Origin: Roseibium aggregatum IAM 12614 | GTDB lineage: Bacteria > Pseudomonadota > Alphaproteobacteria > Rhizobiales > Stappiaceae | Length of the DNA stretch: 64,000 nucleotides | Reading direction: 5' to 3' | Assembly: GCF_000168975.1 (NCBI RefSeq) | Contig: NZ_AAUW01000007.1 | Location: 1 to 64,000, forward strand | In this document: positions 30,524 to 46,479 of the stretch, in pieces | Position numbering within the stretch: the stretch's first letter is position 1 | Layout: each line of letters begins with the position of its first letter | The notes under the pieces: model-generated | What the model was told of the DNA's origin: nothing | The model's input: only the letters and a program-made list of their open reading frames with translations | Databases searched by the model: none | Translations under genes and position numbers: made by a program

Positions 30524-30994
30524 TCGCGCGCGCTCCCTGATGCGTTTACGTTGTCATGCTGCAGAATTTCGTGACCGGGACGAGACGTCAAGACAACCTT
30601 GGGTAAACAATGGCAACTTTGCAGCAATCTTTTGCCCATCCCCGTTATCCACCATCGAACCGATCAAAATTACGCTGCGTCTTTTAGAGTTTAGACGGTC
30701 TTAACCGTTGTCAGGTCTAATTTTCGCAATCGTGGATCGATGGGCAGAAAGATCTATCCACGTAAATGGATCGCACCGGTTTTCGTTCGCAAGTTCCGTG
30801 AAAGATTGCAGCGCTAACAATCGAATGTGATCCAATGCCGGTTCAGCATAGCAGGTTGAAGACCTCTCGCTGATAACCGGACATGGCAAGCCGGGGGGCA
30901 CCGGTTCGTCTGTGGCAGAGACATTGGGCCGGCCAGGACTATTAACATGCTCCATTCGGGAGCTAAGGACTCTGTCATCAGGGCGGTTAAGCCA
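30524..30994. other. Intergenic region between divergent genes
   Basis: No gene is supported here. A small minus-strand open frame (30701-30955) has no recognisable features. At 30691-30720 TTAGAC and GTCTAA can pair around a smaller ACGGT/ACCGT stem, followed by TTTT; it may be a weak hairpin or operator. The region presumably carries promoters for both flanking genes. Confidence 0.4.
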
Positions 30995-32953
30995 ATGAAT
31001 TTTGATAAACTATTGCGAATAGGGTTTCCGGCGCTCTGCGCAACTCTTACGCTGTTTCTTGGTGCAAACGCCTATTCTCTTTACAGTGCGCAATCCGACT
31101 ATCTGCACAAGGTTGAGTTGGAACGCTCTGTCCTCAATGATGCACTGCGCTTCAATACCACGGCTCTTGAAAAGCTGATTGCGCGGTACGGCGCATTCAA
31201 GAGCCCGGAAGACGCGACTGAGGCCAGAAAGACCTACGAAATTCTTGTAAACGCCTTCGAAACATGGCCCAGCGATGCCTACAGCGAGATTGTCGGTCCC
31301 TCGGACTATATCCAGCAAAAGTTGCTCAACATCATTCGCGCGAGCAACCGGGTTAAGCCGTTCCTGGACACACTTGATGACCAGACATCCCTCAACAATG
31401 CTCTCATCATCCTGCAGGGAATAGAAAGTTCTCTTGAGCAGATCAATCGGATGGCGACAGAGGAAGCCGGCACGCAAATGGCGGCGGCCAGAGACAGCTT
31501 TCATTTTCAGCAGATCTTGCAGGACCTTCTCATTGTTGCGTTTCTTTTGGCGAGCCTCGGGTGGATATGGTTCACCAACAAGCGCAGCCAGATGCTGCAG
31601 CGGCAAGCAGATACCAGCCGCGAACAGATGGAACTTCTGGAGCACCGGCTCAACCATGACAGTGTCACCGGCCTGATAAACTATCGCGTTTTCGCTGAAA
31701 CCGTACGCGCTACCCATGAAACGCTGGCTGCGGGCCAGACCTTGGCCATTCTCAATATCGATCTGGAATCCCGTCTTCCGGCGATCAACAAATTCAGCCT
31801 GGCGACCGAAGAAGCCATCCTGACCTCGACAGCGGACCTGCTGCGCCATGCCGTCGACCGGATGGAGGGTGAAAACTGTCTGGCCCGATCAGCCGGCAAG
31901 GGATTTTTGCTGATGACCATCAGCGACGAGGACCTTGGCCTGACCGCGTCTGTGATTGCGAACCGCATCCACGATATTTTCCTGCGTCCAATACCGACGG
32001 CGGTTGGCTCATTTTTGATTTCGCCGGCCATCGGCTACGCGGATTCGACTACCGTCGAGCGAGATGCGGCGGACATTATCCGCAATGCGGATCTGGCAGT
32101 CAGCAATGCGGTCAACTACAGCCGCCGCCGCGTCGTGACATACGAACCGGCCATGCGTGCAGAAATGGAACGGCGGACAATTGTCGAAAACGCGCTTGCC
32201 CGCGCCATTGAGGCCAACGAGTGCCTGCCTCACTTCCAGCCTCAGTTCAACCTCATGACCGGGCGTATCTTCGGCGTGGAGGCCCTGGCCCGCTGGTATC
32301 ATTCCGAACTGGGCTGGATCTCACCATCGGAATTCATCCCGATTGCCGAACGTAATGGCGATATCGTTTCGCTTGGCTGGAAGATCCTGGAGACGTCCTG
32401 CTCGGAAGTTCAGTTGCTGCCATCAGATCTCAGCCTGTCGGTCAACCTGTCCGTCGCTCAAATCCTGAGTGACGATGTCGTCGCGATGCTGGACGAGTGT
32501 CTGGGGCGCACCGGTCTTCCGGCTTCCAGACTGAAGCTTGAAGTCACCGAAACAACCCTGATGAGCGATCTGCGCCGCATTCAGACGACACTGTCCGAGT
32601 TGCGGTCCCTTGGCATCGGCATATCGCTGGACGACTTTGGCGTTGGCTACTCGGCCCTGTCTTATCTGACGGACTTCGACTGGGACGAAATCAAGATCGA
32701 CCGTTCGTTTGCCACCAAGGCGGTCAAGGACAAGAAACTGCGTGATATCCTCAAGATGGTTCTCGGCATTGCCGAAACCATGGGCTCGCAGGTCCTGATC
32801 GAAGGCATCGAGACCGTCGAGCAGCGGGATGTCCTGGTCGACATCGGCTGCACCATTGGCCAGGGCTATCTCTTCGGTGGCCCGATGGCGATTGACGACA
32901 TCACGACGCTGTTCTTCTCCGATCACTCCAGAAGCACTCTGGCGGGACTATGA
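30995..32953 (+). CDS. Membrane GGDEF-EAL protein, probable c-di-GMP phosphodiesterase
   Basis: The product is about 652 residues. Two membrane helices (FPALCATLTLFLGANAYSLY and LLIVAFLLASLGWIWF) flank a roughly 150-residue helical periplasmic sensor part. The GGDEF domain is degenerate: the signature position reads SAGKG, so no cyclase activity is expected. The EAL domain is intact: EALARW, the Asn of LSVNLS, EVTETT, DDFGVGYS, IKIDRSF and the final E and QGYLFG. It should hydrolyse c-di-GMP. An in-frame ATG at 30947 would add 16 residues; neither start has a strong ribosome site. Confidence 0.88.
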   Translation: MNFDKLLRIGFPALCATLTLFLGANAYSLYSAQSDYLHKVELERSVLNDALRFNTTALEKLIARYGAFKSPEDATEARKTYEILVNAFETWPSDAYSEIVGPSDYIQQKLLNIIRASNRVKPFLDTLDDQTSLNNALIILQGIESSLEQINRMATEEAGTQMAAARDSFHFQQILQDLLIVAFLLASLGWIWFTNKRSQMLQRQADTSREQMELLEHRLNHDSVTGLINYRVFAETVRATHETLAAGQTLAILNIDLESRLPAINKFSLATEEAILTSTADLLRHAVDRMEGENCLARSAGKGFLLMTISDEDLGLTASVIANRIHDIFLRPIPTAVGSFLISPAIGYADSTTVERDAADIIRNADLAVSNAVNYSRRRVVTYEPAMRAEMERRTIVENALARAIEANECLPHFQPQFNLMTGRIFGVEALARWYHSELGWISPSEFIPIAERNGDIVSLGWKILETSCSEVQLLPSDLSLSVNLSVAQILSDDVVAMLDECLGRTGLPASRLKLEVTETTLMSDLRRIQTTLSELRSLGIGISLDDFGVGYSALSYLTDFDWDEIKIDRSFATKAVKDKKLRDILKMVLGIAETMGSQVLIEGIETVEQRDVLVDIGCTIGQGYLFGGPMAIDDITTLFFSDHSRSTLAGL

Positions 32954-32992: not shown

Positions 32993-33226
32993 TCAAGACG
33001 CGCGATCGGCGGCTTGCTGTTTCTTTGCTTTTCTCGCTTGCCTGACCAGAGAAAAGATCAGAACGAGACCTCCGATGGCGGCAACGAACATAAGCTGATG
33101 GAATGGCGATCCCAGCAGGTGATCACCTGCGCTTTCCAAACCGGTCAGATGATCATGCTCTCCGGGGTGGGCAAGTGCCGGAGTGGATGCCACGGCAAGA
33201 AGTGACGTCATCACAAGCTGTTTCAT
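32993..33226 (-). CDS. Small exported HupE-like membrane protein in the guanidine operon
   Basis: The product is 77 residues: signal peptide MKQLVMTSLLAVASTPALA, predicted mature start HPGEHDH, then GLESAGDHLLGSPFHQ, one membrane helix (LMFVAAIGGLVLIFSLV) and a basic tail. The mature N-terminal His cluster and the GL..DHLL pattern recall HupE/UreJ nickel permeases, but those are about 190 residues with six or more helices, so this is a miniature relative or look-alike. It overlaps the His-rich gene by 4 bp (ATGA) and is last in the riboswitch-controlled operon. A role in nickel acquisition is inferred. Confidence 0.75.
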   Translation of the reverse strand: MKQLVMTSLLAVASTPALAHPGEHDHLTGLESAGDHLLGSPFHQLMFVAAIGGLVLIFSLVRQARKAKKQQAADRAS

Positions 33227-33759
33227 TCTGCGATATCTCCATGGGACAGGCGGGTGGTGAGGATGTCGATCAGATCGATGTCTGACCGTTGCGACAGGGA
33301 TACGAAGGTGAAGGTCATGGTTTCCCGGGCTTTGACCATCGAACCGGGAAAACTCATGTAGACGAGCTCACGGGAGGCAAAGGCGGGCGAGGCTGTGCCC
33401 ACCTGCCAATTGCTGACGATCTTCGCGTCGACAAGGTGCTGCACGAGACCATCGGTACCGGGACGGTGAAACGGAACGCCCGCAAGACGCAGGTAACTGG
33501 TCTTGTCTTCCGCCGCCCGAAAGCCGTCGATGAAGCTCACTGCCAGAGCCTGCAGTTCCTCCGCCCGGTCAGTGTGGGACGCGCCATGCACATGGGAATG
33601 CAGATGGTCCGGACCGTCGTGATTATGCCCCGCGAGGTCTGTGTGGTCGTGGCTGTGGTCGTGTCCGTGCGCATGGGAATGATGATCGTGGTGGTGGTGG
33701 TCGTGATGACCATGATGAAACTGGTGGTCGTGGTCGTGCCTGTGCTGGTGCCGCGCCAT
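33223..33759 (-). CDS. His-rich protein, candidate nickel chaperone for the guanidine hydrolase
   Basis: The product is 178 residues. Residues about 4-65 are dominated by His, Asp and Gly (stretches such as HHGHHDHHHHDHHSHAHGHD), like the metal stores of HypB, UreE or SlyD. The remaining about 115 residues form an unrecognised domain (AVSFIDGFRAAEDKTSYLRLAGVPF, KIVSNWQVGTASPAFASRELVY, TFVSLSQRSDIDLIDILTTR) with no GTPase or HypA zinc motif. It starts 5 bp after the ureohydrolase stop and overlaps the next gene by 4 bp. I infer that it supplies Ni2+ to the upstream hydrolase. Confidence 0.8.
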   Translation of the reverse strand: MARHQHRHDHDHQFHHGHHDHHHHDHHSHAHGHDHSHDHTDLAGHNHDGPDHLHSHVHGASHTDRAEELQALAVSFIDGFRAAEDKTSYLRLAGVPFHRPGTDGLVQHLVDAKIVSNWQVGTASPAFASRELVYMSFPGSMVKARETMTFTFVSLSQRSDIDLIDILTTRLSHGDIAE

Positions 33760-33763
33760 CGCC

Positions 33764-35002
33764 TTACTCCACGTCCGGACCGGCCGGAATGGACACCGGC
33801 TTGTCGACGATGGATTTGTGGGAGCCCATCTTGCCGTGGGAAACCAGGGTGCCGAGCACATCCACAATCACACGAGTTGCTAAAAGGGCGGTGATGTCGG
33901 AGCAATCGTAAGGCGGCGAGACTTCGACAACCTCAAGACCGCAGATGCCTTCCTTGGCGACAAGCGACACAAGCTCCAGTGCTTCTCTCGGCAGGAAGCC
34001 GCCCGGTTCCGGCCAGCCAGTGCCAGGCACGAACCCGCAGTCGACGCTGTCGATGTCAAACGAGATATAGACCGCGTCAGCATCCTTCCAGGCGAGTTCC
34101 AGCGCGCGCGCGGCCGTTTCCGCCAGACCCAGTTCCTCAACATCGCGCATGGTGAAGATGTTGGTGTTGCGCTCCCGGGCAACTTCCACCCCTTCGCGCG
34201 GGACCTGCCAGCCACCGATGCCGATCTGGACCAGATTGACGGCCGGGACATTGACGAGATCGGTTGCATGGAACCACGGCGTCGTGTGCATCCGCTCATC
34301 CAGGTCCTTTTCCTGAATGTCGATATGCCGGTCGAAATGCACGATGCCGATACGTTTTGAGGTGCACTGGGCAATCCCGCGCACGCAAGGAAAACCGATT
34401 GAGTGATCGCCGCCGATCATGATCGGCAAGGCGCCGGAGGATGCGACGTGGGAAACCGCCCGCGTGATCTGGTCAAAGGTCTTCTCGATATTCGCCGGAA
34501 TGGTGAAGATGTCGCCGACGTCGCAAAGCGTCATCTGCTCCCGAAGATCCACCCCCATCTCGTAATTGTAGGGCGTGTAGAGGGCAGAAATCTTGCGAAC
34601 ACCCTGCGGCCCGAAGCGTGTACCAGGCCTGTAAGTGGTGCCACCGTCAAAAGGAATGCCGATGACAGCCGCATCATAGGCGCCGACCTTGGTCACGTCC
34701 TCGATGTAGGGCGCCTTCAGGAAGGTGTTGATCCCCGCATAATGGGGCAGTTCGCCACGGGCAAAGGTCGGGATCGATTTGTCGGTGAGACTATCCGATC
34801 CAGTCAATCCCATCCGCAGGGCCCAGGCTTTTTCCTTTTCCCAGGCAGCTGAGGGCAGGGCACCTTCCTTTTCAGCAGCCTTCCAACCCCGCAATTGCAG
34901 TTTGTCGAAGTCAGGATGATGCTGTCGACAGCTTGGTTCTCTGTTCAATTGCCCCGCGCCACGGTGGTGCGTCCTGGGGCCTGAGGTTCGATGGAAACTC
35001 AT
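33764..35002 (-). CDS. gdmH: Ureohydrolase, probable Ni-dependent guanidine hydrolase
   Basis: The product is 412 residues, about 100 longer than agmatinase, with an N-terminal extension as in the cyanobacterial guanidine hydrolase GdmH (Sll1077). Metal ligands are visible: H200 in GGDHS, D224, H226 and D228 in FDRHID, D316 and D318 in SFDID. The FDRHID form with RMHTTPWFHATDLVN, QIGIGGWQVPREG, GFVPGTGWPEPGGFLPRE and VVEVSPPYD agrees with my recollection of GdmH and differs from the DAHxD of agmatinases. Predicted reaction: guanidine to urea and ammonia. ATG 35002 follows AGGA at 7 bp. It lies in a guanidine-riboswitch operon with an importer. Confidence 0.88.
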   Translation of the reverse strand: MSFHRTSGPRTHHRGAGQLNREPSCRQHHPDFDKLQLRGWKAAEKEGALPSAAWEKEKAWALRMGLTGSDSLTDKSIPTFARGELPHYAGINTFLKAPYIEDVTKVGAYDAAVIGIPFDGGTTYRPGTRFGPQGVRKISALYTPYNYEMGVDLREQMTLCDVGDIFTIPANIEKTFDQITRAVSHVASSGALPIMIGGDHSIGFPCVRGIAQCTSKRIGIVHFDRHIDIQEKDLDERMHTTPWFHATDLVNVPAVNLVQIGIGGWQVPREGVEVARERNTNIFTMRDVEELGLAETAARALELAWKDADAVYISFDIDSVDCGFVPGTGWPEPGGFLPREALELVSLVAKEGICGLEVVEVSPPYDCSDITALLATRVIVDVLGTLVSHGKMGSHKSIVDKPVSIPAGPDVE

Positions 35003-35012
35003 TGGATAATCC

Positions 35013-35870
35013 TCATTCGTGGTTGTCACTGGCCTGGGTGTCATGAGCCTTGCTGTTTTGGGAGAAAGGCGGGGGTTTGGTTGCCTGGGACGCGCCGATG
35101 GCCCCGGCGATGGCTTCCGGCGACCGCAGGGTGCCTCCGGTTGGCGATTTGAGCGGCAGGTCGTAGGTGATGGTCGCGCCGTAGGCGTGCGGTGCTTGCG
35201 GATCGTGACGGATCTTGTCGAACACCAGCAACCGCGTGCCCAGTTTGAAGGCTTCATGGATATCGTGCGTCACCATGAACACCGTCATGGACAGCTCTTT
35301 CCAGAGCCCCAGAAGCAGTTCATGCATGTCAACGCGGATACCGGGGTCAAGCGCGCCGAAAGGTTCGTCGAGCAGCAGGATACTTGGCTTCTTGACCAGG
35401 GCTTGAGCGATCGCCAGACGTTGCTGCATACCGCCGGAGAGTTGGGCCGGGTACTTGTTTGCTGCCGGCTGCAAACCGATCCTGTCAAACAGGTCGTCGA
35501 TCGACTGAAAGGCCGCCTTGCGAGCAGAGCCAAAGAGGCGTCCCGACCAGCGTGAGGCTTCAAACTCCTGGGCGAGGATGAGGTTTTCAGCCACGGTCAG
35601 ATGCGAAAACACCGAGTACTTCTGAAAGACGATCCCACGGTCCGGTGTCGGTTCCGGCGGCAAGGGCTTTCCGTCCAGCAGGATCTGGCCCCGGCTTGCA
35701 TGTTCCTGGGAAAGCAGCATACGCAGGAATGTTGATTTGCCGCAGCCGGATGCTCCAACGATGGTGCAAAAAGACCCGGTTTGGACGTCCAGGTTGACCC
35801 GTTCCAGAACGGGTATTCTGTCGTAGAATTTGGCAAGTCCCTGGACCGAGAGTTTGGGCGCAGTGCTCAT
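35013..35870 (-). CDS. ABC transporter ATP-binding protein (NitT/TauT type, guanidine operon)
   Basis: The 285-residue ATPase has Walker A IVGASGCGKSTFLRML near residue 37, Q-loop GIVFQKYSVFSHLTV, signature LSGGMQQRLAIAQAL, Walker B ILLLDEPFGALDPG and the H-loop VTHDIHEAF. This is the SsuB/TauB class. The C-terminal tail (SQATKPPPFSQNSKAHDT) is longer than usual. The start overlaps the permease stop by 4 bp, and the stop is 10 bp before the hydrolase start. Homologous ABC sets under guanidine-I riboswitches import guanidine. Confidence 0.92.
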   Translation of the reverse strand: MSTAPKLSVQGLAKFYDRIPVLERVNLDVQTGSFCTIVGASGCGKSTFLRMLLSQEHASRGQILLDGKPLPPEPTPDRGIVFQKYSVFSHLTVAENLILAQEFEASRWSGRLFGSARKAAFQSIDDLFDRIGLQPAANKYPAQLSGGMQQRLAIAQALVKKPSILLLDEPFGALDPGIRVDMHELLLGLWKELSMTVFMVTHDIHEAFKLGTRLLVFDKIRHDPQAPHAYGATITYDLPLKSPTGGTLRSPEAIAGAIGASQATKPPPFSQNSKAHDTQASDNHE

Positions 35871-36688
35871 AGCGCGTCCCCTCCCAGATGGTGCCATCGG
35901 AAGGCGCGGCGAGACAGGAGGAGCAAGGCTCTGTCGAGCAGGAACGCCAGCAGCGTGATCCAGACAACGTAAGGCAGGATTACATCCATCGCGAGATAGC
36001 GGCGCACCAGAAAAATCCGGTACCCGAGCCCGGACGTGGACGCGATGGCCTCCGCAGAAATCAGAAAGATCCAGGCAGGCACGAGAGAGAGCCGCAGGCT
36101 GGTGATCAGGTGAGGCAGAACCTGCGGCAATACTAACCGCGTCACCATTTGCCAGACGCTGGCCCCAAGCGTTTCGGCCTTGATGATCATCTCCCGCGGA
36201 ATGTCCAGAACGGCCTGGGCCGTTGAACGGATCATCACAGGTGCTGTCCCGATGACGATCAGGGCAATCTTGGCGAGTTCGCCAAGACCGAAGGTGATGA
36301 ACAGGATCGGCAGAATGGTGATCGGCGGGATCAGCGAGAAGGTTGCCAGATATGGCGCCAGTGCGCTGCGCACATGCGGAATGAAGCCGATGGCGATACC
36401 AAAAGAAAGCGCCAGCAGCGTGGAAACCGCCATGCCCGTCCCCAGTCGCCAGAGACTGTCGAAACTGTCCAGCCAAAGCAGCAGATCGCCTGACCGCCGA
36501 TCCGGCACCGTCGCCATGCGCCAGAAAGCTTCCGCCATGCTGGACAGGGACGGCAACAGCTTGTCGGCCGGGTTGTCGAGCCGGCGATAATGACTGGCAA
36601 CCGCGTAGGTGACCACTGTCAGCACGAAGGGCAGGAGCCCAAGCGCCAGGGCGGTGACCCGGGAGGGTTTCCGGTTGATGATGCGCAT
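35867..36688 (-). CDS. ABC transporter permease (NitT/TauT type, guanidine operon)
   Basis: The 273-residue inner-membrane permease of the BPD_transp_1 family has about six helices. The EAA-loop region reads RSTAQAVLDIPREMIIKAETLGASVWQMVTRLVLPQVLPHLITSLR, typical of the family although the motif here is KAETLGA. LPILFITFGLGELAKIALI is also characteristic. It overlaps the ATPase gene by 4 bp. It is separated from the binding-protein gene by 73 bp that contain a stem-loop. Confidence 0.92.
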   Translation of the reverse strand: MRIINRKPSRVTALALGLLPFVLTVVTYAVASHYRRLDNPADKLLPSLSSMAEAFWRMATVPDRRSGDLLLWLDSFDSLWRLGTGMAVSTLLALSFGIAIGFIPHVRSALAPYLATFSLIPPITILPILFITFGLGELAKIALIVIGTAPVMIRSTAQAVLDIPREMIIKAETLGASVWQMVTRLVLPQVLPHLITSLRLSLVPAWIFLISAEAIASTSGLGYRIFLVRRYLAMDVILPYVVWITLLAFLLDRALLLLSRRAFRWHHLGGDAL

Positions 36689-36712
36689 GAAACGGTCCGA
36701 TCGGTCTCTGGC

Positions 36713-36744
36713 GGCGGTTCCGGCACAACGGTACCGAAACCGCC
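36713..36744 (-). promoter_or_regulatory. Intercistronic stem-loop after the guanidine binding-protein gene
   Basis: On the transcript GGCGGTTTCGG can pair with CCGGAACCGCC over 11 bp (one G-U) around a 10-base loop. It lies 17 bp after the binding-protein stop and has no U-run. It probably stabilises the upstream mRNA and lowers downstream expression, as in many importers; this is inferred. Confidence 0.6.
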
Positions 36745-36761
36745 GGGTCAGCAGCGGATGC

Positions 36762-37832
36762 TTAGAGCGTGCCTTCTGCGGCCATTGCCATGAAACTCGG
36801 GTCGAATTTCAGTTTCACATTGCCAGTGTCGCCATAGATCGAGCCATCCGGGAACGAGACACCGACAAATTCCGGGCTCGGCGCACCTTCACCCAGAATA
36901 CCCTTGTCGAACAGAAATTCGGCGACGAACTTCATCGTCTTGGGAAGTTCTGCGGACTTGGTGAACTCGACCGCTTCTGCGGGCGTGTAGAACATCTTGG
37001 TGGTCGCGAGCTGCGCGTCGTATCCGGCAAGGTCCGTGCCGGAGGCTTCGGCCATGGCGGTGCGTGCCGCGACGCCCTCGTCGCTATCGGACGACATGAT
37101 CGCCATCAGCTCGTACCACGCTCCGACAAGGGCCTTACCGAAGGCGGGATTGTCCGCAAGCGTCTCGGTATTGACCATCATGATATCGATGATTTCGCCA
37201 GGAATGCCGGAGCTGTCGAACACCTTGGTAGCATTTGCTTCCGCTTCGATTTCAGACAGGAGCGGGTTCCAGGTGACCACCGCCGTGACATCCGGCGTCT
37301 GATAGGCGGCGATCATGTCTGCGTCGGATGTATTGACGACCGTCAGATCCTGTTCACTAAGCCCCACCGTGTCGAGCGCCCGTGCGAGCAGGTAGTGAGA
37401 GACGGAAAGCTCCACCAGGTTGACGCTTTGTCCCTTGATATCGGCAAGTTCGGTCTTGTCCTTCAGGATGATGCCGTCGTTGCCGTTGGAGTAATCGCCG
37501 ACGATAAGCGCAGTCGTGTCGACACCGCCGCCAGCCGGGATCGAAAGGGCATCCATATTGGTCATGGAGCAGCCGTCATATTCCCCCGCGGTGTATTGAT
37601 TGATCGACTCCACATAGTCGTTGATCTGAACGATCTCGACAGAGATGTCGTATTTGTCGGCCCATTTCTTCATGAGGCCGCTGTCCTGCAGATAGCCCCA
37701 GGGCATCCAGCCGACATAGATGGACCAGCAGACCTTGAAATCCGTCTTTTCCTCGGCCCTGGCCGAAGTGAGGGAAAGAGGCAGCGTCAGCGCTGCGGCG
37801 AGGAGGGAAGCTTTGGCAATCGATTTCAACAT
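36762..37832 (-). CDS. ABC transporter substrate-binding protein, probable guanidine-binding
   Basis: The 356-residue periplasmic protein of the NMT1/SsuA-like class has a signal peptide (LLAAALTLPLSLTSARA, cleavage before EEKTDF). Features include VCWSIYVGWMPWGYLQDSGLMKKWADKY, INDYVESINQYTAGEYDGCSMTNMDAL and TAVVTWNPLLSEIEAEANAT. The several Trp, Asp and Glu residues near the expected pocket would suit a cationic ligand such as guanidinium. It is the first gene after the guanidine-I riboswitch, with AGGAG 10 bp upstream of its ATG. Ligand assignment depends on the riboswitch and neighbours, not on the protein itself. Confidence 0.9.
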   Translation of the reverse strand: MLKSIAKASLLAAALTLPLSLTSARAEEKTDFKVCWSIYVGWMPWGYLQDSGLMKKWADKYDISVEIVQINDYVESINQYTAGEYDGCSMTNMDALSIPAGGGVDTTALIVGDYSNGNDGIILKDKTELADIKGQSVNLVELSVSHYLLARALDTVGLSEQDLTVVNTSDADMIAAYQTPDVTAVVTWNPLLSEIEAEANATKVFDSSGIPGEIIDIMMVNTETLADNPAFGKALVGAWYELMAIMSSDSDEGVAARTAMAEASGTDLAGYDAQLATTKMFYTPAEAVEFTKSAELPKTMKFVAEFLFDKGILGEGAPSPEFVGVSFPDGSIYGDTGNVKLKFDPSFMAMAAEGTL

Positions 37833-37901
37833 CTGTGCGCGTCTCCTGTCTTGGGCCCGGTCATCAGAACCGGGCTTACGTCATGAGGTTTTTGCGCACG
37901 G

Positions 37902-37948
37902 CCGGGAGAAGGTTCGCGCGCGCGAAACCTCGTGCAGTTGTCTCCCGG
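37902..37948 (-). promoter_or_regulatory. Probable riboswitch expression platform
   Basis: The aptamer's 3' segment CCGGGAGA (37948-37941) is perfectly complementary to UCUCCCGG at 37909-37902. An inner palindrome of AGGTT...AACCT with a CG-repeat loop lies between them. Forming this long hairpin would break the aptamer, so the two structures exclude each other, the expected switch. No U-run follows (GTGCGCAAAAACC), so it may act by Rho-dependent or translational control. A second hairpin, GCCCGGT/ACCGGGC, sits just before the ribosome site. Confidence 0.7.
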
Positions 37949-38050
37949 GTTTTTGTCCCGCCGTGTCACCGGTCTATGTCGGCATGTGCCACTCAACCGG
38001 CTTGCACCTCTCGGTCCTGCGTCGTCTTGCGACCGGATCCCTAGGCGCGC
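37941..38050 (-). promoter_or_regulatory. Guanidine-I (ykkC) riboswitch aptamer
   Basis: Read on the minus strand, conserved ykkC blocks occur in the right order and spacing: CTAGGGATCCGG (38044 downward), GGACCGAGAGGTGCAAG near 38012-37996, and ACACGGCGGGACAAAAAC followed by CCGGGAGA ending at 37941. These match the guanidine-I consensus elements CUAGGG(U)UCCG, GGUCCGAGAG and ACGG-GGGAYAAAA-CCCGGGAGA as I know them. It lies 109 bp upstream of the binding-protein start, within its leader. In this class guanidine binding turns expression on. The P1 boundary on the 5' side is approximate. Confidence 0.93.
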
Positions 38051-38261
38051 TGCACGTCGCTAACAAAGCAAGGGGAATGCCAGAAAGATGAGGAGGGAAA
38101 TTTCGTCCATTGTTTCAATGTTTTAACAAAAAGCAGTTGGATTGAGTTCGTCGAAACCAATCAACAACAAATGGTATTCTGAGCAGAATATGGGCAGCAT
38201 GGTGAAGAATGCACCATGCCCAGACCTTAAGCAGGCTTTGCAGGTCTATCGAAAAACAGTC

Positions 38262-38507: not shown

Positions 38508-39113
38508 TTAAGCCGCAGGTTCGTCGACCTTCCCCTCGTCTCCAGCCACGTCCTGCTTTTTCTTGCCGGCGAAAAGACCTTTGATCCATCCCTTCTTCTC
38601 TTCGCCGCCGGAAGGAGAAGCGTCTTCTGGCGCGGTAGGGGCTTCCGCTTCGTTCGTTGTTGAGGGTGCTCCCGGGGCAACCTGTTCGCCAAAGGCGGTA
38701 AAAAACTCGCCGGCAAGACGTTTGGCGGTTGAGTCAATCAGCCTGGAACCAAGCTGCGCCAGCTTGCCCCCAACCTTGGCATCAACGTCGTAGTGAAGGA
38801 TCGTCGCGTCAGGACCGTCTTCTTCCAGACGAACCTTGGCAGCCCCTCTGGCAAAGCCGGCAACGCCGCCGGAACCTTCGCCTTCGATGGTATAGCCATT
38901 CGGCGGGTCAAGATCGTTGAGGGTCACCTTGCCGCCGAACGTTGCTTTTACGGGCCCCACCTTCAGGCGAACCTTGGCCTCCAGATCGGTGTCCGAATGC
39001 TTGATCAGCTCCTCGCATCCTGGAATCGAGGCCTTCAGAACCTCCGGATCATTCAACGCCTCCCAGACCTTTTGCTTGGGGGCTCCGATCCGCTGGCTGT
39101 CGTTCATTTGCAT
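38508..39113 (-). CDS. coxG: CO dehydrogenase accessory protein CoxG
   Basis: The product is about 201 residues. The first about 145 are a SRPBCC (START-like) domain of the CoxG family: QRIGAPKQKVWEALNDPEVLKASIPGCEEL, VKATFGGKVTLNDLDPPNGY, DVDAKVGGKLAQLGSRLIDS. A disordered Pro/Glu/Ala linker and a basic KKGWIKGLFAGKKKQ end follow. CoxG of carboxydotrophs has been linked to anchoring CO dehydrogenase to the membrane and to quinone binding. Start at 39113 (or the ATG at 39107). It lies last among the recognised cox genes. Confidence 0.92.
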   Translation of the reverse strand: MQMNDSQRIGAPKQKVWEALNDPEVLKASIPGCEELIKHSDTDLEAKVRLKVGPVKATFGGKVTLNDLDPPNGYTIEGEGSGGVAGFARGAAKVRLEEDGPDATILHYDVDAKVGGKLAQLGSRLIDSTAKRLAGEFFTAFGEQVAPGAPSTTNEAEAPTAPEDASPSGGEEKKGWIKGLFAGKKKQDVAGDEGKVDEPAA

Positions 39114-39133
39114 GTGGCTGTTTCCCTGGTGGA

Positions 39134-40006
39134 TCAAACGTTATGGATGTTGCTCTGGCGATGGCCGCTGCGGCGGATCATCAAGAGTTCTGCCAGAATG
39201 GAGAGTGCAATTTCTTCCGGCGCAATGGCTCCCAGATCGAGGCCTGCGGGTCCCTTGATCCGGTCGAGGGTCTGATCCGCTACGCCTTCGTCGCGCAATT
39301 TCGCCTTCAGGGCTGCAATCTTCCGGCGGCTCCCGACAAACCCAATGTGGCGCGCATCCGTCAGAAGAGCTGCCTTCAGGGCCGCCAGATCGCTGCGTCC
39401 CTGGGTCGAAATGATGGAGTAGATCTGCCCGTTGCTGCGAATGGGACTGTCAAATCCTTCTGCTCTTTTCCCGGTGCCTGAAAAGACGGACAGGTCTTCG
39501 GCAGGCGCGCAGAAGGTCAGGTCAAACCCGATGGAAGGCGCCTGGCTCGCAAGAGCAACGGCAACCGGACTGGCGCCGTAGATGACAAGCGTGGGCCGCG
39601 GCAGAACCGGTTCTATGAAGATATCCATGGTCCCCTGGCTCGGGCACATGTTCTTGGCAAATTGAATGCCTTCGCGCTCCTCACCGGCTTCTACGCCGAT
39701 CTCCGCCAGCAGGTCCGCCGGTTGAAGGGAGATCAATCGTGTCTGTCCATCTTCAAAAGCGGACTTTGCCGCCTTGATGACAGCCGATCTTGCGCAGCCA
39801 CCGCCGATCCAGCCGCCGACAATGTCACCATTCCTGTCGATCACCGCCTTGGCGCCGGCCTTGGCTGCGGTCACCGATATGGTGCGTACAACGGTTGCCA
39901 GAACGAAAGGTTCGTTGTCACCCTGCAATCGGTTCATCAGACGCGGCAGGTCCTGCACGACCTCTGGCGAGGCCTCTTTGCCGGACACGGGAACGGAATG
40001 CTTCAT
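39134..40006 (-). CDS. coxF: CO dehydrogenase maturation protein CoxF (XdhC-like)
   Basis: The product is about 290 residues of the XdhC/CoxI family. It has an N-terminal domain with NEPFVLATVVRTISVTAAKAGAKAVID, GDIVGGWIGGGCARSAV and QFAKNMCPSQGTMDIFIEP, then a Rossmann part with LVIYGASPVAVALA, ARHIGFVGSRRKIAALKAKL and PAGLDLGAIAPEEIALSILAEL. It presumably prepares or inserts the Mo-Cu molybdopterin cytosine dinucleotide cofactor of CoxL. The ATG at 40006 follows GGGAG; an upstream in-frame ATG at 40021 lacks a ribosome site. It is one of two XdhC homologues in the window. Confidence 0.9.
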   Translation of the reverse strand: MKHSVPVSGKEASPEVVQDLPRLMNRLQGDNEPFVLATVVRTISVTAAKAGAKAVIDRNGDIVGGWIGGGCARSAVIKAAKSAFEDGQTRLISLQPADLLAEIGVEAGEEREGIQFAKNMCPSQGTMDIFIEPVLPRPTLVIYGASPVAVALASQAPSIGFDLTFCAPAEDLSVFSGTGKRAEGFDSPIRSNGQIYSIISTQGRSDLAALKAALLTDARHIGFVGSRRKIAALKAKLRDEGVADQTLDRIKGPAGLDLGAIAPEEIALSILAELLMIRRSGHRQSNIHNV

Positions 40007-40024
40007 CTCAACATCTCCCATCGT

Positions 40025-41224
40025 TCAAAGTCTCGCCAGATAAGGCTCTAGGGCTTCAAGGCTGGCCAGGTTATGAGCTGGCGCGAAGAAATCGACATGG
40101 GGCAGGGCGGCGGCCATGCCTCCGGCTGTCGGTTCATACCCCTGCCAGCCGAGCAGCGGATTGAGCCAGACAATGCGCCTGCAGCGCCTTCGCAACCGTG
40201 CCATCTCGTCCCCAAGTGCTTCCGGCGTGCCCGTGTCATAGCCATCCGACAGGATCAGGACGCAGGTGCGAGAGTGGACGACCCGGGCAGCGTGCCATTT
40301 GTTGAAGTCGGCCAGCGCCGCACCGATCTTCGTGCCGCCGCCGATCCCTTGCGCCATCAGCCCCATGCGATCGAGCGCACGGCCAGCGTCCCGCTCCGAG
40401 AGCGCTGAGGAGACATGGACAAGACGGGTATGAAAAAGAAACGCTTCAGCTTCGCGGAAGCTATCGAGCAAACCGTGCACGAACCGAGTGAAGACACCCG
40501 TGTAGTTGTTCATCGACCCGGACGCATCGAGCAGGATCACCAGCCGCAACTGTTTCTCGCGGGGGCCTTTGCGCACAAGTTCGATAGGTGTCCCGCCTTG
40601 GGCAATGGACCGCCGGATGGTTCTGCGCAGATCCAGCTTCCGGCCTTTTCGTTTCTGACGATCTCTGCGGGTCAGTCTTATGCGCATTGCCCGTGCGAGC
40701 CGTTCGGCAAGCTCATGTGCCTGTTTCACCGCCTCCGGATCGCTGAGATGTCGAAAATCCAGCTGGCCGAGGTTTTCGGCAATGCTCGCACCTTCCCGGC
40801 GTCCGGAAGGAGTGTCCTCGCTCGCCTCATCCTCTTCACCCGGGAGACGCTCAACATCACCGGCAATTGTTTCCTGACGGTTTCCGCTGGCGTCGATCAT
40901 CTCGCGAATTGTCTTCATGCCCTTGCGCGTACTCGTCCCGGTGACCTTCACGCCCGACTTGACACCCTTGCCAGTCCAATAGGCGTCGAAGATATCGTCG
41001 AAACGCTGCCAGTCGGACAAACGTCCGCAAAACAGACTGCGAAAGGCAGCCCTCAAGCTGCCGGGGCGTTGTATCATCCGAGAACTCAGCAACCGGCTTG
41101 CGTCCCGGGTCTCGGCCAATCCGACCTTGAAGCCACTGTCGCGCAGGGAGCGGACGAACCCGGCAAGCCGCAGCCTCAGAACCGGACCGATGTCAGCACT
41201 GGTTTCAAGGCTAAGGCCGGACAT
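40025..41224 (-). CDS. coxE: VWA-domain maturation protein CoxE
   Basis: The 399-residue CoxE-type von Willebrand A protein has a metal-ion-dependent adhesion motif in ILLDASGSMNNYTGVF, the threonine region GIGGGTKIGAALADFN and ILSDGYDTGTPEALGDEM. With the MoxR ATPase CoxD it assembles the copper-sulfur-molybdenum site in Oligotropha. The gene begins 3 bp after the coxD stop with an ATG preceded by an in-frame GTG. Confidence 0.92.
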   Translation of the reverse strand: MSGLSLETSADIGPVLRLRLAGFVRSLRDSGFKVGLAETRDASRLLSSRMIQRPGSLRAAFRSLFCGRLSDWQRFDDIFDAYWTGKGVKSGVKVTGTSTRKGMKTIREMIDASGNRQETIAGDVERLPGEEDEASEDTPSGRREGASIAENLGQLDFRHLSDPEAVKQAHELAERLARAMRIRLTRRDRQKRKGRKLDLRRTIRRSIAQGGTPIELVRKGPREKQLRLVILLDASGSMNNYTGVFTRFVHGLLDSFREAEAFLFHTRLVHVSSALSERDAGRALDRMGLMAQGIGGGTKIGAALADFNKWHAARVVHSRTCVLILSDGYDTGTPEALGDEMARLRRRCRRIVWLNPLLGWQGYEPTAGGMAAALPHVDFFAPAHNLASLEALEPYLARL

Positions 41225-41227
41225 CAC

Positions 41228-42109
41228 TCAGGCCACCTTTCCCAGAAGCCTGTCGGTGACTTCGCGGCTGACGCGGGCAGTGTCCTCGCGGGTTTTCAGA
41301 ACACAGGAAAGCGTCTCGAAGACAAGTTCCCGGCTGTCTTGCAGGTTTTTGGCTCCAAGGCCCAAAAGAGCCGCCGCCCAATCAATGGTTTCGGCCACGC
41401 CGGGAACCTTCACGAGGTCTTCCTTGCGCAGTTTGCCCATAAGGTCGGCGATCTGTTGGGCGAGAGCAGCATCCAGGCCGGGGACACGTGACTGCAATAT
41501 GCGTGTTTCACGGTCGGGCGAAGGATAATCGACAAAATGATAGAGACAGCGGCGACGCAGCGCGTCGGAGAGTTCACGCGTTCCGTTCGAGGTCAGAACC
41601 ACGCGCGGGATCGATGTTGCCTGAACCGTGCCGAGTTCCGGGATCGAAACCTGGAAGTCAGACAGGATTTCAAGCAGGAATGCCTCGAATTCCTCATCCG
41701 CCCGGTCGATTTCATCGATCAGCAAGACAGGCGGTTCCTCCCGGCGGATGGCTGCCAATAGCGGGCGCTCCAGCAGATACTTTTCAGAGAAGACGGCTTC
41801 TTCCACCGCATCGGCGCTGTCGCCCGATCCCTCCCGCGCCTTGATGGCCAGAAGCTGTCGCTGGTAGTTCCACTCGTAGATGGCATCGGACCGGTCGAGG
41901 CCTTCATAGCATTGCAGGCGAATGAGATCCGTGTTCTCCAGCCGCGCCAGAGCCTTTGCCACTTCCGTCTTGCCGACACCGGCTTCGCCTTCCAGAAGCA
42001 GCGGCCGCCCGAGCATTCCGGTCAAGAGAAGTGCCGTCGCAAGACCTTCGTCCGCGATATAACCGGCGTCCGCGAGCTGAAGCGCTATCTGATCCTTGGT
42101 CTGGGTCAT
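41228..42109 (-). CDS. coxD: MoxR-type AAA+ ATPase CoxD
   Basis: The 293-residue AAA+ chaperone has Walker A LLEGEAGVGKTEVAKALA near residue 41, Walker B PVLLIDEIDRADEEFEAFLLE, sensor VLTSNGTRELSDALRRRCLYHFVD and GVAETIDWAAALLGLG. CoxD drives maturation of the CuSMo centre of CO dehydrogenase with CoxE and CoxF. The frame is open to 42196, but the first 29 codons are unlike the family, so MTQTKDQ at 42109 is taken as the start; its ribosome site is weak. Confidence 0.92.
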   Translation of the reverse strand: MTQTKDQIALQLADAGYIADEGLATALLLTGMLGRPLLLEGEAGVGKTEVAKALARLENTDLIRLQCYEGLDRSDAIYEWNYQRQLLAIKAREGSGDSADAVEEAVFSEKYLLERPLLAAIRREEPPVLLIDEIDRADEEFEAFLLEILSDFQVSIPELGTVQATSIPRVVLTSNGTRELSDALRRRCLYHFVDYPSPDRETRILQSRVPGLDAALAQQIADLMGKLRKEDLVKVPGVAETIDWAAALLGLGAKNLQDSRELVFETLSCVLKTREDTARVSREVTDRLLGKVA

Positions 42110-42240
42110 GCTGGTCCGTTCGGTGAGAAGGTCGCGTCCATCGTCTTTCAGGCGCTGATCCTGGATCAGGTCACGAGAGGACGACCGGAACGTCACCGCA
42201 GTCCGTTTCCCGGAAGAACCGGCCTGCGGTGACGAGCGCT

Positions 42241-44661
42241 TTACCCGTGCGCGCCCAGTTCCTTGGCTGCCTGCCAGATCCGCCAGGCGTCATGCGGCAT
42301 CTGGATATGGGTAGACCCTAGGAACTTGAAGGCATCGTTTACCGCGTTGGAGAAGGCCGGCACACCACCGACATTCGGGCTTTCGCCAACGCCCTTTGCT
42401 CCGATCGGATGATGCGGGCTGGGGGTGACGGTGAAATCCGTTTCCCAATGGGGTGTTTCGACCGCCGTCGGCAGGAAGAAGTCCATGAAGGACGCACCGA
42501 GCACGTTGCCCATTTCGTCGTAGCGGATCTCCTGACCCATTGCGATGGCAAAGGCCTCTGTCAGGCCGCCGTGGACCTGACCCTCGATGATCATCGGATT
42601 GATCCGGGTTCCACAGTCATCCAGCGCATAGAAGCGACGTGTCTTGGCAACACCGGTATCGACATCGATATCCATCACACAGAGGTAGGCGCCGAATGGA
42701 TAGGTCATGTTGGGCGGGTCGTAATAACTGACCGCTTCAAGACCCGGCTCCATGCCCGGAGGCGGGGCGTGATAGGCAGCCCAGGCGATCTCCTTCATGG
42801 ATTTGCGTGCCTGCGGATTGCCTTTCACCTGGAAGCCGTCCACGTCCCATTCCAGATCGTATTCGGAAACTTCCAGCATGTGGGCCGCGATCATCTGCGC
42901 CTTGTTGCGGATCTTGCGAGACGCAAGGGCAATCGCGGCCCCCGCCACAGGCGTAGAGCGCGAGCCATAGGTCCCGAGACCGTAAGGCGCGGTATCCGTG
43001 TTGCCTTCCTCCACCATGATGTCGGCGGCGGGAATGCCGATTTCCGTCGCGATGATCTGCGCCCAGGTGGTCTCATGCCCCTGGCCTTGCGACTTGGTCC
43101 CCATGCGGGAAATCACCGAGCCGGTCGGGTGCACGCGGATTTCCGCGCTATCGAACATTGCGACACCGAGGATATCGCAATTCTTGGACGGACCGGCGCC
43201 GACGATCTCAGTAAAGAACGACACGCCAATGCCCATGATCTCGCGGGTTTCGCCGCGTTTGAAGGCTTCCTGTTTGGCCTTTTGTTCCGCGCGCAGCTCG
43301 CGATAGCCGATCGTGTCCATCGCCTTCTGCATGGCGGTATGATAGTCGCCGCTGTCATATTCCCAGCCTAGGGCCGAATGATAGGGAAACTGCTCCGCCT
43401 TGACGAAGTTCTTCATCCGCAAGTCCGCCGGATCCATGTCGAGCTTCTGGGCCAGAATATCCATGGCCCGCTCGATGCAATAGGCCGCCTCCGTCACTCG
43501 AAACGAGCAACGGTACGCCACCCCACCGGGTGCCTTGTTGGTATAGACCCCGTCGACTTCCAGATGCGCGGCCGGGAAATCATATGACCCGGTCACGATA
43601 TTGAAGAAACCGGCCGGCCATTTAGATGGGTCGGCACAGGCATCGAAGCCGCCATGGTCAGCCAGAACATGCACCTTGAGACCGGTGACGGTACCGTCAT
43701 TCTTGGCGGCGATTTCCGCCGTCATGTGATAGTCGCGAGCGAAGGACGTGGTCGAAAGGTTCTCCATCCTGTCCTCGACCCATTTCACCGGCACGCCGGT
43801 GACGATGGACGCAACGATGGCGCAGATGTACCCCGGATAAGCACCGACCTTGTTGCCGAAGCCACCGCCGATATCCGGCGCGATCACATGGATCTTCTGC
43901 TCCGGAATAGTCGAGAGCAGTGAGGCCACCGTCCGGATGACATGGGGTGCCTGGAACGTTCCCCAGACGGTCAGCTCCCCCTTGATCTTGTCCATCGATG
44001 CAACGCACTGGCACGTCTCGAGGGGCGAGGGGTGCGTCCGGTGATAGGAGATCAGCTCCTTGATGGTGACATCGGCCTCCGAAAAGGCTTTGTCGGTTTC
44101 CTCCCGGTCGCCCACCTCCCACGTGAAGATGTGGTTGTGGTGTTTGCGCGGACCGTGTGCGCCTTCCATCTTGCCGTCTAGATCAGGCCGCAGAACCGGA
44201 GCATCCGCATCCATCGACTTGAAGGGATCGGTCAGGACGGGAAGTTCCTCATATTCGACTTCCACAAGCTGGATGGCATCGTCGGCAATGTAGCGGTTTT
44301 CGGCCACCACAAAGGCAACTTCCTGGTTCTGGTAAAGCACCTTGCCGTCCGCCAGCACCATCTGCACGTCACCGGCCAGGGTTGGCATCCATGCGAGGTT
44401 GACGCCTTTCAGGTCTTCGGCCGTCAGAACGGCAATCACGCCCGGCAGTTTCAGGGCCTCGGAGGCGTCGATCCTGGTGATCTTCGCGTGGGCATAGGGA
44501 GAGCGGACGAAATCGCCGAACACCATGCCGGGCAGTTTCAGATCGTCGACATACTGGCCCTTGCCCTGTGTGAAGCGAATGTCTTCCACGCGCTTGCGCT
44601 TGCAGCCCATGCCTTCCAGGGCGGCTTCACGCTGTTCCCGTGTCGGGGTCATGTCGTTCAT
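42241..44661 (-). CDS. coxL: Form I aerobic CO dehydrogenase, large subunit
   Basis: CoxL holds the Mo-Cu cofactor that oxidises CO to CO2. The 806-residue product carries the active-site loop AYRCSFR (form I motif AYxCSFR, with the Cys that binds copper), not the AYRGAGR of form II relatives. Other marks are [50 protein letters not shown] and [16 protein letters not shown] with the catalytic Glu. Its start overlaps the coxS stop by 4 bp. It is the key marker gene for aerobic CO oxidation. Confidence 0.97.
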
Positions 44662-45167
44662 TCTGCAGCCTCCTGAAATTCAGTACCATTCAGCTTTGCA
44701 GCGGCGTACTGGATCGCCTTGACGATGTTCTGGTATCCGGTGCACCGGCAGAGATTTCCCGAGATCCCCATCCGGATTTCCTCTTCCGTCGGGTTCGGGT
44801 TTTCCTTCAGCAGCGTGTGCGCGCGCAGGATCATGCCCGGGGTGCAGAAGCCGCATTGCAGCCCGTGCATCTGCCGGAAGCCTTCCTGCAGCGCAGACAG
44901 AGTACCATCCGCATTGGCCATGCCTTCGATGGTGGTCAGTTCCGCGCCGTCTGCCTGGACTGCAAACATGGTGCAGGACTTCACGGACATGCCGTTCAGT
45001 TCCACTGTGCAGGCACCGCAATGGGACGTCTCGCAGCCGATATGCGGCCCTGTGAGGTTGAGGTCCTCGCGCAGGAAATGGATCAGAAGCGTGCGCGCTT
45101 CCACAAAACGCTGCACCTTCTTGCCGTTGACGGTCATGGTGACCGGGATCTGTTCGATATCGCTCAT
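44658..45167 (-). CDS. coxS: CO dehydrogenase small subunit (2x[2Fe-2S])
   Basis: The 169-residue iron-sulfur subunit has a plant-type ferredoxin domain with cysteines in [16 protein letters not shown] and the second cluster in [14 protein letters not shown] and [12 protein letters not shown]. It passes electrons from CoxL to the FAD of CoxM. The C-terminus ([12 protein letters not shown]) overlaps the coxL start by 4 bp. It begins 23 bp after the coxM stop. Confidence 0.96.
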
Positions 45168-45189
45168 GTGTGTCTCCCTCGGTCCCGGT

Positions 45190-46056
45190 TCAGCTTGCGG
45201 CGCGCGTTGCAGCTCGTGCGAGAGCTCTCTGCAACATCACGCCAGCCATCTTGGTGCGGTATTCCGCCGGTCCACGCCCGTCCGAGGCAGGCTCGGTGAT
45301 TTCCTCAGCAGCTGCAACTGCACGGGCAACAGTCTCCGCATCCAGCGTCGAGCCGGTCAGGATCTCACCGGCCTCCTGCGCATAAAGCGGCGTATCGGCG
45401 ACATTGGTGAGCGCGATGGAACAGAAAGAGACGGTGCCACCGTCCAGGGTCAGCACCACGGCGGCGGCGGCCGTCGCATAATCGCCGACCTTGCGCTTCA
45501 GCTTTTCGTAGGCATAGCCATGGCCTGCAGGCGGAACAGGAATTCTGACGGCTGTCAGGATCTCGTCCGGTGCAAGGGTGGTGAAATAGGCAGCTTCATA
45601 GAAGTCCCGCGCGGGGACCTCGCGGTCACCTTCAGGACCGGTCAGCACGTAGGCCGCATCCAGACACTGCATCAGCGCCGGCATGTCGTTGCCCGGATCG
45701 CCATTGGCGACATTGCCGCCAAGCGTACCGACATATCTGATTTGAGGATCGGCAATGAGAAGCGACGTTTCACGAATGATCGGCAGCTTCTGCGCAAGCA
45801 GGTCCGAGGCGATCAGTTCGTGCTGCGTGGTCATGGCGCGAATGGTGATCGTATCGCCGTCATCCGTGATGCCCTTGAGATCGGCAATGCCGCCAAGATC
45901 GACCAGGTGTTCCGGCGCTGCCATTCGCAGCTTCATCATGGGGATCAGGCTGTGTCCGCCTGACAGGGGCCGCGCTTCGTCGCCATGGCTGACCAGGATC
46001 GCAACCGCTTCTGCAACGGACGATGGCCGGTGATAGGTGAATGCACCAGGTATCAC
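45190..46056 (-). CDS. coxM: CO dehydrogenase medium subunit (FAD)
   Basis: The 288-residue flavoprotein subunit has the FAD motifs [17 protein letters not shown] near residue 33 and [21 protein letters not shown] near residue 108. The GTG at 46056 is chosen because GGAGGAG stands 6 bp upstream and the product then begins at the family's [12 protein letters not shown]; the frame is open to 46116. It is the first structural gene of the coxMSL set, preceded by a 423-bp regulatory gap after coxC. Confidence 0.95.
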
Positions 46057-46479
46057 GTCTTTCTCCTCCCTCTGCCGGCCGCCCAGGGGCCGGATGCCGG
46101 TCCTCTTGAAAAGCAAATGGTTTCGCCTTCCACCGGCAACGTCGTGTCCGGACGCAAGAAGCGGCAGGACAGTTCACGTAGGCAAAGGGTGCGGAAGAGT
46201 GCGGCGCACACTCAAGGCTGCTTGCACAAACGGCCCGCTCGACCACACGGACGGCGGTCTGCCTTGCACGAATTGCGACAGTTTTATTGACGCATTCCGG
46301 GACGGAAACGGGCATAACCCTGGAAAGAAACTCTTAATTACAGAGACTTATGGCGGCTTTTTCGGATTTGAGCGGAAGTCGACCAAACGGCACTTCAATC
46401 ATGCAGGTTTGCACGAACGGCGTGTTTTCAGGCCCAGGATGCACTGCAACACGCAGAAGTTGCCGGACCCGGCCCCTTC
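46057..46479 (-). promoter_or_regulatory. coxM promoter region with three 13-bp direct repeats
   Basis: No gene is seen in this 423-bp gap. Three same-orientation copies of TTGCACRAAYKGC stand on the plus strand: TTGCACAAACGGC at 46222, TTGCACGAATTGC at 46264 and TTGCACGAACGGC at 46409. The first two starts are 42 bp apart, about four helical turns. The adjacent gene encodes a LytTR DNA-binding regulator, a class that typically binds direct repeats, so these are candidate CoxC sites. Core promoter elements were not resolved. Confidence 0.6.

Follow-up and report, generated by a model that had tools for sequence, protein, structure and literature searches.

The window considered here is a stretch of 64,000 nucleotides (positions 1 to 64,000 of contig NZ_AAUW01000007.1) from the alphaproteobacterium Roseibium aggregatum IAM 12614, and the system in question is an operon, lying entirely on the minus strand, in which a guanidine-I riboswitch aptamer comes first and is followed by the genes for a substrate-binding protein, a permease, an ATPase, a hydrolase, a histidine-rich protein and a protein of 77 residues. 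In the close alphaproteobacterial relatives examined, the histidine-rich gene always accompanies gdmH, the gene of the hydrolase. On balance, the sequences favour a reading in which the operon imports guanidine for a likely cleavage into urea and ammonia, and in which the histidine-rich protein probably supplies the enzyme with nickel. From the aptamer to the last gene, the features are:

37940-38055, minus strand: guanidine-I (ykkC) riboswitch aptamer (RF00442)
37902-37950, minus strand: candidate expression platform (predicted minimum-energy fold)
36762-37832, minus strand: periplasmic substrate-binding protein (TIGR03427)
35867-36688, minus strand: permease of an ATP-binding cassette (ABC) importer (PF00528, 75.9 bits)
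35013-35870, minus strand: ATPase of the ABC importer (PF00005, 112.7 bits), overlapping the permease gene by 4 bases
33764-35002, minus strand: guanidine hydrolase of the GdmH clade, 412 residues (PF00491, identity, tree)
33223-33759, minus strand: histidine-rich protein, 178 residues, with a histidine-rich N-terminus and a conserved C-terminal domain
32993-33226, minus strand: small protein of 77 residues, predicted to be membrane-anchored (sequence reading and hydropathy), with a 4-base ATGA overlap

The gaps between the genes, from the binding protein to the small protein, are 73, –4, 10, 4 and –4 bases. An earlier reading, made from the letters of the window (the sequence-only reading), had described genes on one strand joined by 4-bp overlaps or short gaps; the coordinates agree with it, and the order of aptamer, gdmH and histidine-rich gene recurs in related loci. 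The span that it gave to the operon, 32993-38050, holds for the genes, whereas the aptamer reaches 38055, slightly past that end.

A Histidine-Rich Partner of gdmH

The linkage was followed in 80 loci, the best-matching of 581 gdmH loci and as such biased to near relatives, and in less biased samples of genomes, which overlap in part and include the Roseibium genome itself. A homologue of the histidine-rich gene follows gdmH in all of the 80 loci, in 79 by tblastn and in one (L055) by reading; the gap between the two genes is 144–221 bases in four of them (L030, L051, L054 and L074), and the choice of start or stop is doubtful in L052 and L072. When the search was not anchored on gdmH, 289 Alphaproteobacteria gave eight hits, seven beside gdmH and one a fragment (G125), and the gene is present in all seven genomes of this sample whose gdmH has at least 76% identity. 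Among 150 genomes of the order, 17 of the 18 hits lie beside gdmH, the gdmH of one of them (G681) being truncated; a hit in G776 (E 4e-5), with no gdmH in view, was taken as a chance match to the histidine tract. In 398 Pseudomonadota, separate searches for the histidine-rich protein and for gdmH (E ≤ 1e-100) found the same seven genomes, with the two genes adjacent in each (hypergeometric probability 3e-15, kinship ignored). The records of plasmid-borne gdmH have the histidine-rich gene in seven of seven alphaproteobacterial cases and in none of four actinobacterial ones, and in the class sample no such partner was found in G007, G064 and G079, whose gdmH relatives are 54–57% identical, or in G114 (37–38%).

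The protein itself combines a variable and a constant part. Its first 60 residues in the window hold 27 histidines and nine aspartates, and the whole protein has no cysteine. Across the 80 loci the number of histidines per protein runs from 6 to 33 (median 19), the length of the tract varies freely and in one case (L052) the tract is at the C-terminus instead of the N-terminus, and the motifs GHN and HSH are kept in 70 and 75 proteins, respectively. The conserved C-terminal domain, which spans some 115 residues and in which D85, P125, Y134 and P138 are invariant, was modelled by AlphaFold2 with a predicted local distance difference test score of 94–98, and the model gave no significant structural match among the known folds of the PDB. 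No Pfam family, PF01155 (HypA) included, was matched at E ≤ 0.01 by any of 51 members and no NCBIfam model at the same threshold by 45 C-terminal domains, and a GTPase (cobW/HypB) domain was not found in these searches; the tract resembles ZrgA, a zinc-uptake model, at chance level (E 0.038, below the cut-off). A profile of the family is matched by 2887 of the 7178 candidate proteins scored and, among the 120 of these matches listed, all names given are of the hypothetical or uncharacterised kind. In the literature searched, mainly open-access and in part available as partial text, no description of a histidine-rich protein beside gdmH was found, and a query combining guanidinase, nickel and histidine-rich gave nothing. 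As far as these searches reach, the family of the partner is undescribed, while the operon type itself is already known.

Some loci of the survey deserve separate mention. The fragment in G125 (L116, 7103-7357) has no gdmH and lies beside what reads as a LolD/FtsX-like pair; we regard it as a decayed remnant. In G681 (L141/L151) the histidine-rich gene is intact, the match to GdmH is without residues 1–111, and neither urease, HypA nor HypB is over the cut-off; because of that incomplete match this genome was dropped as an example of a minimal set of gdmH and histidine-rich gene, although it was kept in the genome counts given below. Locus L025, filed as Anaerolineae, has an operon that nearly matches the alphaproteobacterial version of G148, and its contig is probably mis-binned.

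Nickel Helpers in the Loci and in the Genomes

With the HypA and HypB proteins of the Roseibium genome as queries (E ≤ 1e-4, up to 8 kb on each side), the 80 loci gave no hypA or hypB hit in the neighbourhood of gdmH; as a positive control, the same queries recover the second hyp cluster of that genome. Thirteen of the 80 loci have shorter flanks, so that hypA or hypB could lie unseen beyond them. Exclusivity of hypAB and the histidine-rich gene was followed in these loci and in a few others by reading: hypA and hypB were not seen in the stretches read of G007, G064 and G079, nor among the annotated neighbours in two annotated actinobacterial plasmid records.

On the scale of whole genomes, we considered the 27 found to hold the pair of gdmH and histidine-rich gene, including G681 with its 5′-truncated gdmH. 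HypB is over the cut-off in seven of them and HypA in nine, three of these by partial matches, leaving 20 genomes without HypB and 18 without HypA; since HypB passes in so few, nickel cannot generally come from the Hyp proteins. The sequence-only reading had held that the two terminal genes of the operon replace the Hyp-type helpers. The presence of the histidine-rich gene in all of the 80 loci, with no hypA or hypB adjacent and no HypB in 20 of 27 genomes, agrees with this idea; the small gene, found in only 45 of the loci and with a product that passes no HupE/UreJ cut-off, does not, and neither do the two HypA/HypB pairs of the Roseibium genome.

The Small Membrane Protein and HupE

The protein of 77 residues begins with a signal-like stretch that ends ALA/HPGEHDH, and near residue 43 a further hydrophobic stretch sets in. 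It had been described as exported and the signal-like start is indeed there; because a second hydrophobic stretch follows it, a membrane-anchored protein fits better. A similar small gene, of 49–115 codons, occurs in 45 of the 80 loci, 43 recognised by a simple pattern within 150 bases, which may miss cases, and two (L019 and L076) by eye; 38 of the 45 overlap the histidine-rich gene by exactly 4 bases, and their products, as read, share a signal-like start ending A-H and a second hydrophobic stretch. Neither the protein of the window nor any of eight similar ones scanned passes the cut-off of HupE/UreJ (PF04955), with two of the eight matching below it.

In six of the 80 loci, from Mesorhizobium and Sinorhizobium, a HupE-type gene replaces the small gene, and the two products examined both exceed the PF04955 cut-off (165.9 and 156.7 bits); a gene of this type also follows the histidine-rich gene in S. 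fredii NGR234 and in G780. That a HupE-type gene can occupy the place of the small gene is the best hint in the sequences that the module concerns nickel. The small protein resembles the HupE/UreJ permeases in this gene place and in a similar A-H after the signal-like start, and differs from them in having a single predicted anchor.

The Hydrolase Belongs to the Guanidinase Clade

The hydrolase is identical to Sll1077, the GdmH of Synechocystis, in 229 of 352 aligned residues (65.1%) and to the guanidinase of Nitrospira inopinata in 62.1% over 356 columns, versus 31–38% for proclavaminate amidinohydrolase (PAH), guanidinobutyrase (GbuA) and guanidinopropionase (GpuA) and 24–36% for the five further ureohydrolases that the Roseibium genome encodes. 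The motifs FDRHID and TGWPEPGG, pointed out in the sequence-only reading of this 412-residue ureohydrolase, are both present, together with GGDHS and FDxD; in the alignment, the arginine of the former and the tryptophan of the latter are common to the hydrolase and both known guanidinases, whereas alanine and no tryptophan stand at those positions in the three other enzymes of solved structure and in the five paralogues, which lack both motifs. In our reading, this tryptophan would be the active-site Trp305/Trp313 given in the part available of PMC11410670. In a tree of 39 rows, from which the fragment L098 was left out and which carries a long-branch warning for the outside rows, 28 rows including the enzyme of the window, Sll1077 and the N. 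inopinata guanidinase form one clade (support 99/99), and PAH, GbuA, GpuA and the five paralogues fall outside it. The phylogeny proposed as a check of the earlier reading thus places the enzyme of the window, on the evidence of its sequence, in the guanidinase (GdmH) clade, and the enzyme likely splits guanidine into urea and ammonia.

At its N-terminus the enzyme carries the motif HHP(D/N)F, as HHPD in 74 of the 80 loci and as HHPN in the other six. We tried it as a docking motif that would mark the partner gene and rejected it: HHP also occurs in 24 of the 120 proteins P0121–P0240, whose context is not known, so that it is not a clean marker, and some of these proteins are those with long histidine-rich N-termini described below.

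A separate branch of ureohydrolases, 53–57% identical, was met in L098, L099, L100 and L102 (genomes G064, G079 and G007). In L099 FDRH is present and TGT replaces TGW; such enzymes may therefore not be guanidinases.

Riboswitch and Importer

The aptamer is matched by RF00442 from end to end and, at 65.5 bits, narrowly exceeds the gathering score of 63; it is the sole guanidine-I match in the genome; the guanidine-I aptamer claimed from the sequence, for which a covariance-model search had been proposed, is confirmed by this result. Rfam also confirmed guanidine-I in all eight related loci submitted, which belong to the 80, and in the alignment of these eight and the sequence of the window 14 of 24 predicted pairs keep pairing through changes on both sides. 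A locus-scale model built from the nine sequences finds the aptamer complete in 78 of the 80 loci and cut by the contig end in another (L047); it finds none in L025, where the contig begins in the permease gene, none in two extra loci, L122 and L118 (in the latter the contig starts with the binding protein), and none in the actinobacterial loci L146–L148. Downstream of the aptamer, TTCTCCCGG (37902-37910) pairs with the 3′ strand of the aptamer, CCCGGGAGA, in the predicted minimum-energy fold; no U run follows this pairing, and 37902-37950 is put forward as a candidate expression platform.

The binding protein scores 561.9 bits against TIGR03427 (cut-off 333.9), a model whose name reads ‘putative urea’ transport, and with the PF00528 and PF00005 matches of the other two components it makes up an importer of the NitT/TauT type. 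The importer of the earlier reading is borne out by these matches; guanidine as its cargo is a prediction, in which the substrate-binding protein would bind it.

Comparison With Known Systems

Statements on published systems in this and the following sections follow the portions of the cited sources that were available. The closest parallel is the gdmH (sll1077) operon of Synechocystis, which shares with that of the window the guanidine-I control, an ABC importer and a GdmH 65% identical; unlike it, the Synechocystis system has the HypA/HypB-type proteins GhaA and GhaB (PMC8390497, PMC11271267, PMC12930504), and in the operon of the window none were found and the histidine-rich protein stands instead. 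The activation of GdmH in Synechocystis needs these nickel chaperones (PMC11271267; likewise PMC12930504). The guanidinase of N. inopinata (PDB 9fek) belongs to the same clade (62% identical) and has a guanidine-I aptamer as well, but goes with an APC permease instead of an ABC importer, and in the available text no nickel helper was found for it (PMC11410670). The operons of metformin and dimethylguanidine hydrolases (MefH and DmgH) also combine a nickel ureohydrolase with nickel-handling genes, hypA, hypB and hupE in the case of metformin hydrolase (PMC11399263), although their enzyme is heteromeric and more distant (129–141 bits versus 543 for Sll1077) and hypA-hypB are present. In another study, chaperones co-expressed with metformin hydrolase made no significant difference in extracts (PMC11271267). 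Accessory nickel proteins or hypA/hypB are mentioned for such operons in a review (PMC12186494) and in PMC8390497, the available parts of which name no histidine-rich partner.

A different arrangement is found in the proteins P0186, P0193, P0215 and P0230, in which a histidine-rich N-terminal extension of 144–161 residues, with 20–21 histidines before the core, is fused to the enzyme in cis, whereas in the window the tract belongs to a separate protein; P0186, the only one of the four placed in the tree, falls in the guanidinase clade. Among the 120 best matches to the GdmH of Rubrobacter, the N-terminus of which reads MGAGHHHPERS, the core start was recognised by its pattern in 84, leaving 36 that could not be scored, and 12 of the 84, the four just named among them, have at least five histidines before the core. 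This suggests, as a lead, that one need may be met in trans, by the histidine-rich protein, or in cis, by a fused tract. On the plasmid of Rubrobacter indicoceani (L145, 5834-13215) the aptamer lies directly before gdmH, followed by a solute symporter, a formamidase on the other strand and urease.

A Proposed Role for the Histidine-Rich Protein

From the sequences, we infer guanidine as the substrate, nickel as the metal and delivery as the role of the histidine-rich protein, which is likely a dedicated nickel carrier for the guanidinase working without a GTPase. Rising guanidine would switch the operon on and the ABC system would import it. The histidine-rich N-terminus would bind Ni2+ in the cytoplasm, and the folded C-terminal domain would dock on apo-GdmH and, with no GTPase involved, deliver the metal to the di-metal site. 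More Ni2+ would be supplied at the membrane by the small membrane protein or, in other species, by a full HupE. GdmH would then split guanidine to urea and ammonia, and the urea would likely pass to urease, present in the genome. Whether the protein represents a new class of nickel metallochaperones, free of GTPase, outside the named families and dedicated to the alphaproteobacterial guanidinase, with the histidine tract as donor and a C-terminal domain of possibly new fold that docks, is a proposal for and against which we find the balance even.

Several observations weigh against delivery of nickel by this protein. Histidine-rich stretches also bind zinc, cobalt and copper; in four loci the whole protein holds only 6–8 histidines; and no relative with a known role was found for it, either by fold or by sequence. 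The Roseibium genome encodes the HypA/HypB pair twice, on contig C25 next to what look like NiFe-hydrogenase genes and, together with hypC and hypD, where contig C11 ends (gene names by reading), and the urease alpha subunit is over the cut-off in 26 of the 27 pair-bearing genomes, this one included. The gdmH of Rubrobacter stands behind a guanidine-I aptamer with no homologue of the histidine-rich gene on its plasmid, and the N. inopinata guanidinase works, with no chaperone known there in the text available (PMC11410670).

These observations lead to other explanations. The presence of urease in nearly all of the genomes means that UreE/UreG could supply the nickel, and the two hypAB pairs of Roseibium, as well as a urease near the guanidine operon in G096, agree with nickel coming from UreE/UreG or HypA/HypB and with the histidine-rich protein serving GdmH as a partner in assembly or regulation. 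This explanation seems unlikely: the helpers of urease are usually regarded as specific, 20 of the 27 genomes are without HypB over the cut-off, and a partner that does not handle metal would not explain why GHN (70 of 80) and HSH (75 of 80) are kept. Nor do we think it probable, while granting it slightly more room, that the protein stores or buffers nickel, to the protection of the cell, and keeps metal available to GdmH with no docking or insertion. The 27 histidines of its first 60 residues, the lack of cysteine and a tract that varies freely in length and can move to the C-terminus (L052) would suit a store, which would need neither a domain conserved over some 115 residues, in which D85, P125, Y134 and P138 never vary, nor a strict linkage with gdmH.

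It is improbable that this branch of GdmH uses manganese, cobalt or zinc, with the histidine-rich protein handling that metal. Many ureohydrolases use manganese, and the tract has its chance-level match to ZrgA. In the enzyme of N. inopinata, one nickel and one manganese were present (PMC11410670). Against this, HupE-type genes follow the histidine-rich gene in six of the 80 loci and the closest studied enzymes are nickel-dependent. More improbable still is a hydrolase that acts on another guanidino compound, as guanidinobutyrase or metformin hydrolase do. The ‘putative urea’ name of the binding-protein model and the high Km of the N. inopinata guanidinase (PMC11410670) would leave room for it, whereas the guanidine-I aptamer upstream, the identity of 62–65% to two proven guanidinases versus 31–38% to three other known enzymes and the place of the hydrolase in the tree all speak for guanidine.

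Neighbouring Genes

Just upstream of the guanidine operon, on the same strand (38508-46116), lies an aerobic CO dehydrogenase cluster. Its CoxL scores 1473 bits against TIGR02416 and has the motif AYRCSFR, the mark of form I CoxL; CoxS-, CoxM-, CoxD-, CoxE-, XdhC- and CoxG-like genes were named by position and weaker matches. On the other side, convergent with the end of the operon, the plus strand (30947-32953) encodes what we take, by reading, to be a signalling protein of GGDEF/EAL type.

Concluding Remarks

The partner bears on how guanidinases obtain nickel where no Hyp helpers are encoded; for N. inopinata the loading route is called unclear in the available text (PMC11410670). If delivery by the histidine-rich protein holds true, it would add to the known nickel carriers one that works without a GTPase. 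It would also provide a genome marker for the real guanidinases among the proteins now called ‘agmatinase’, and would aid the production of the enzyme for the removal of guanidine.

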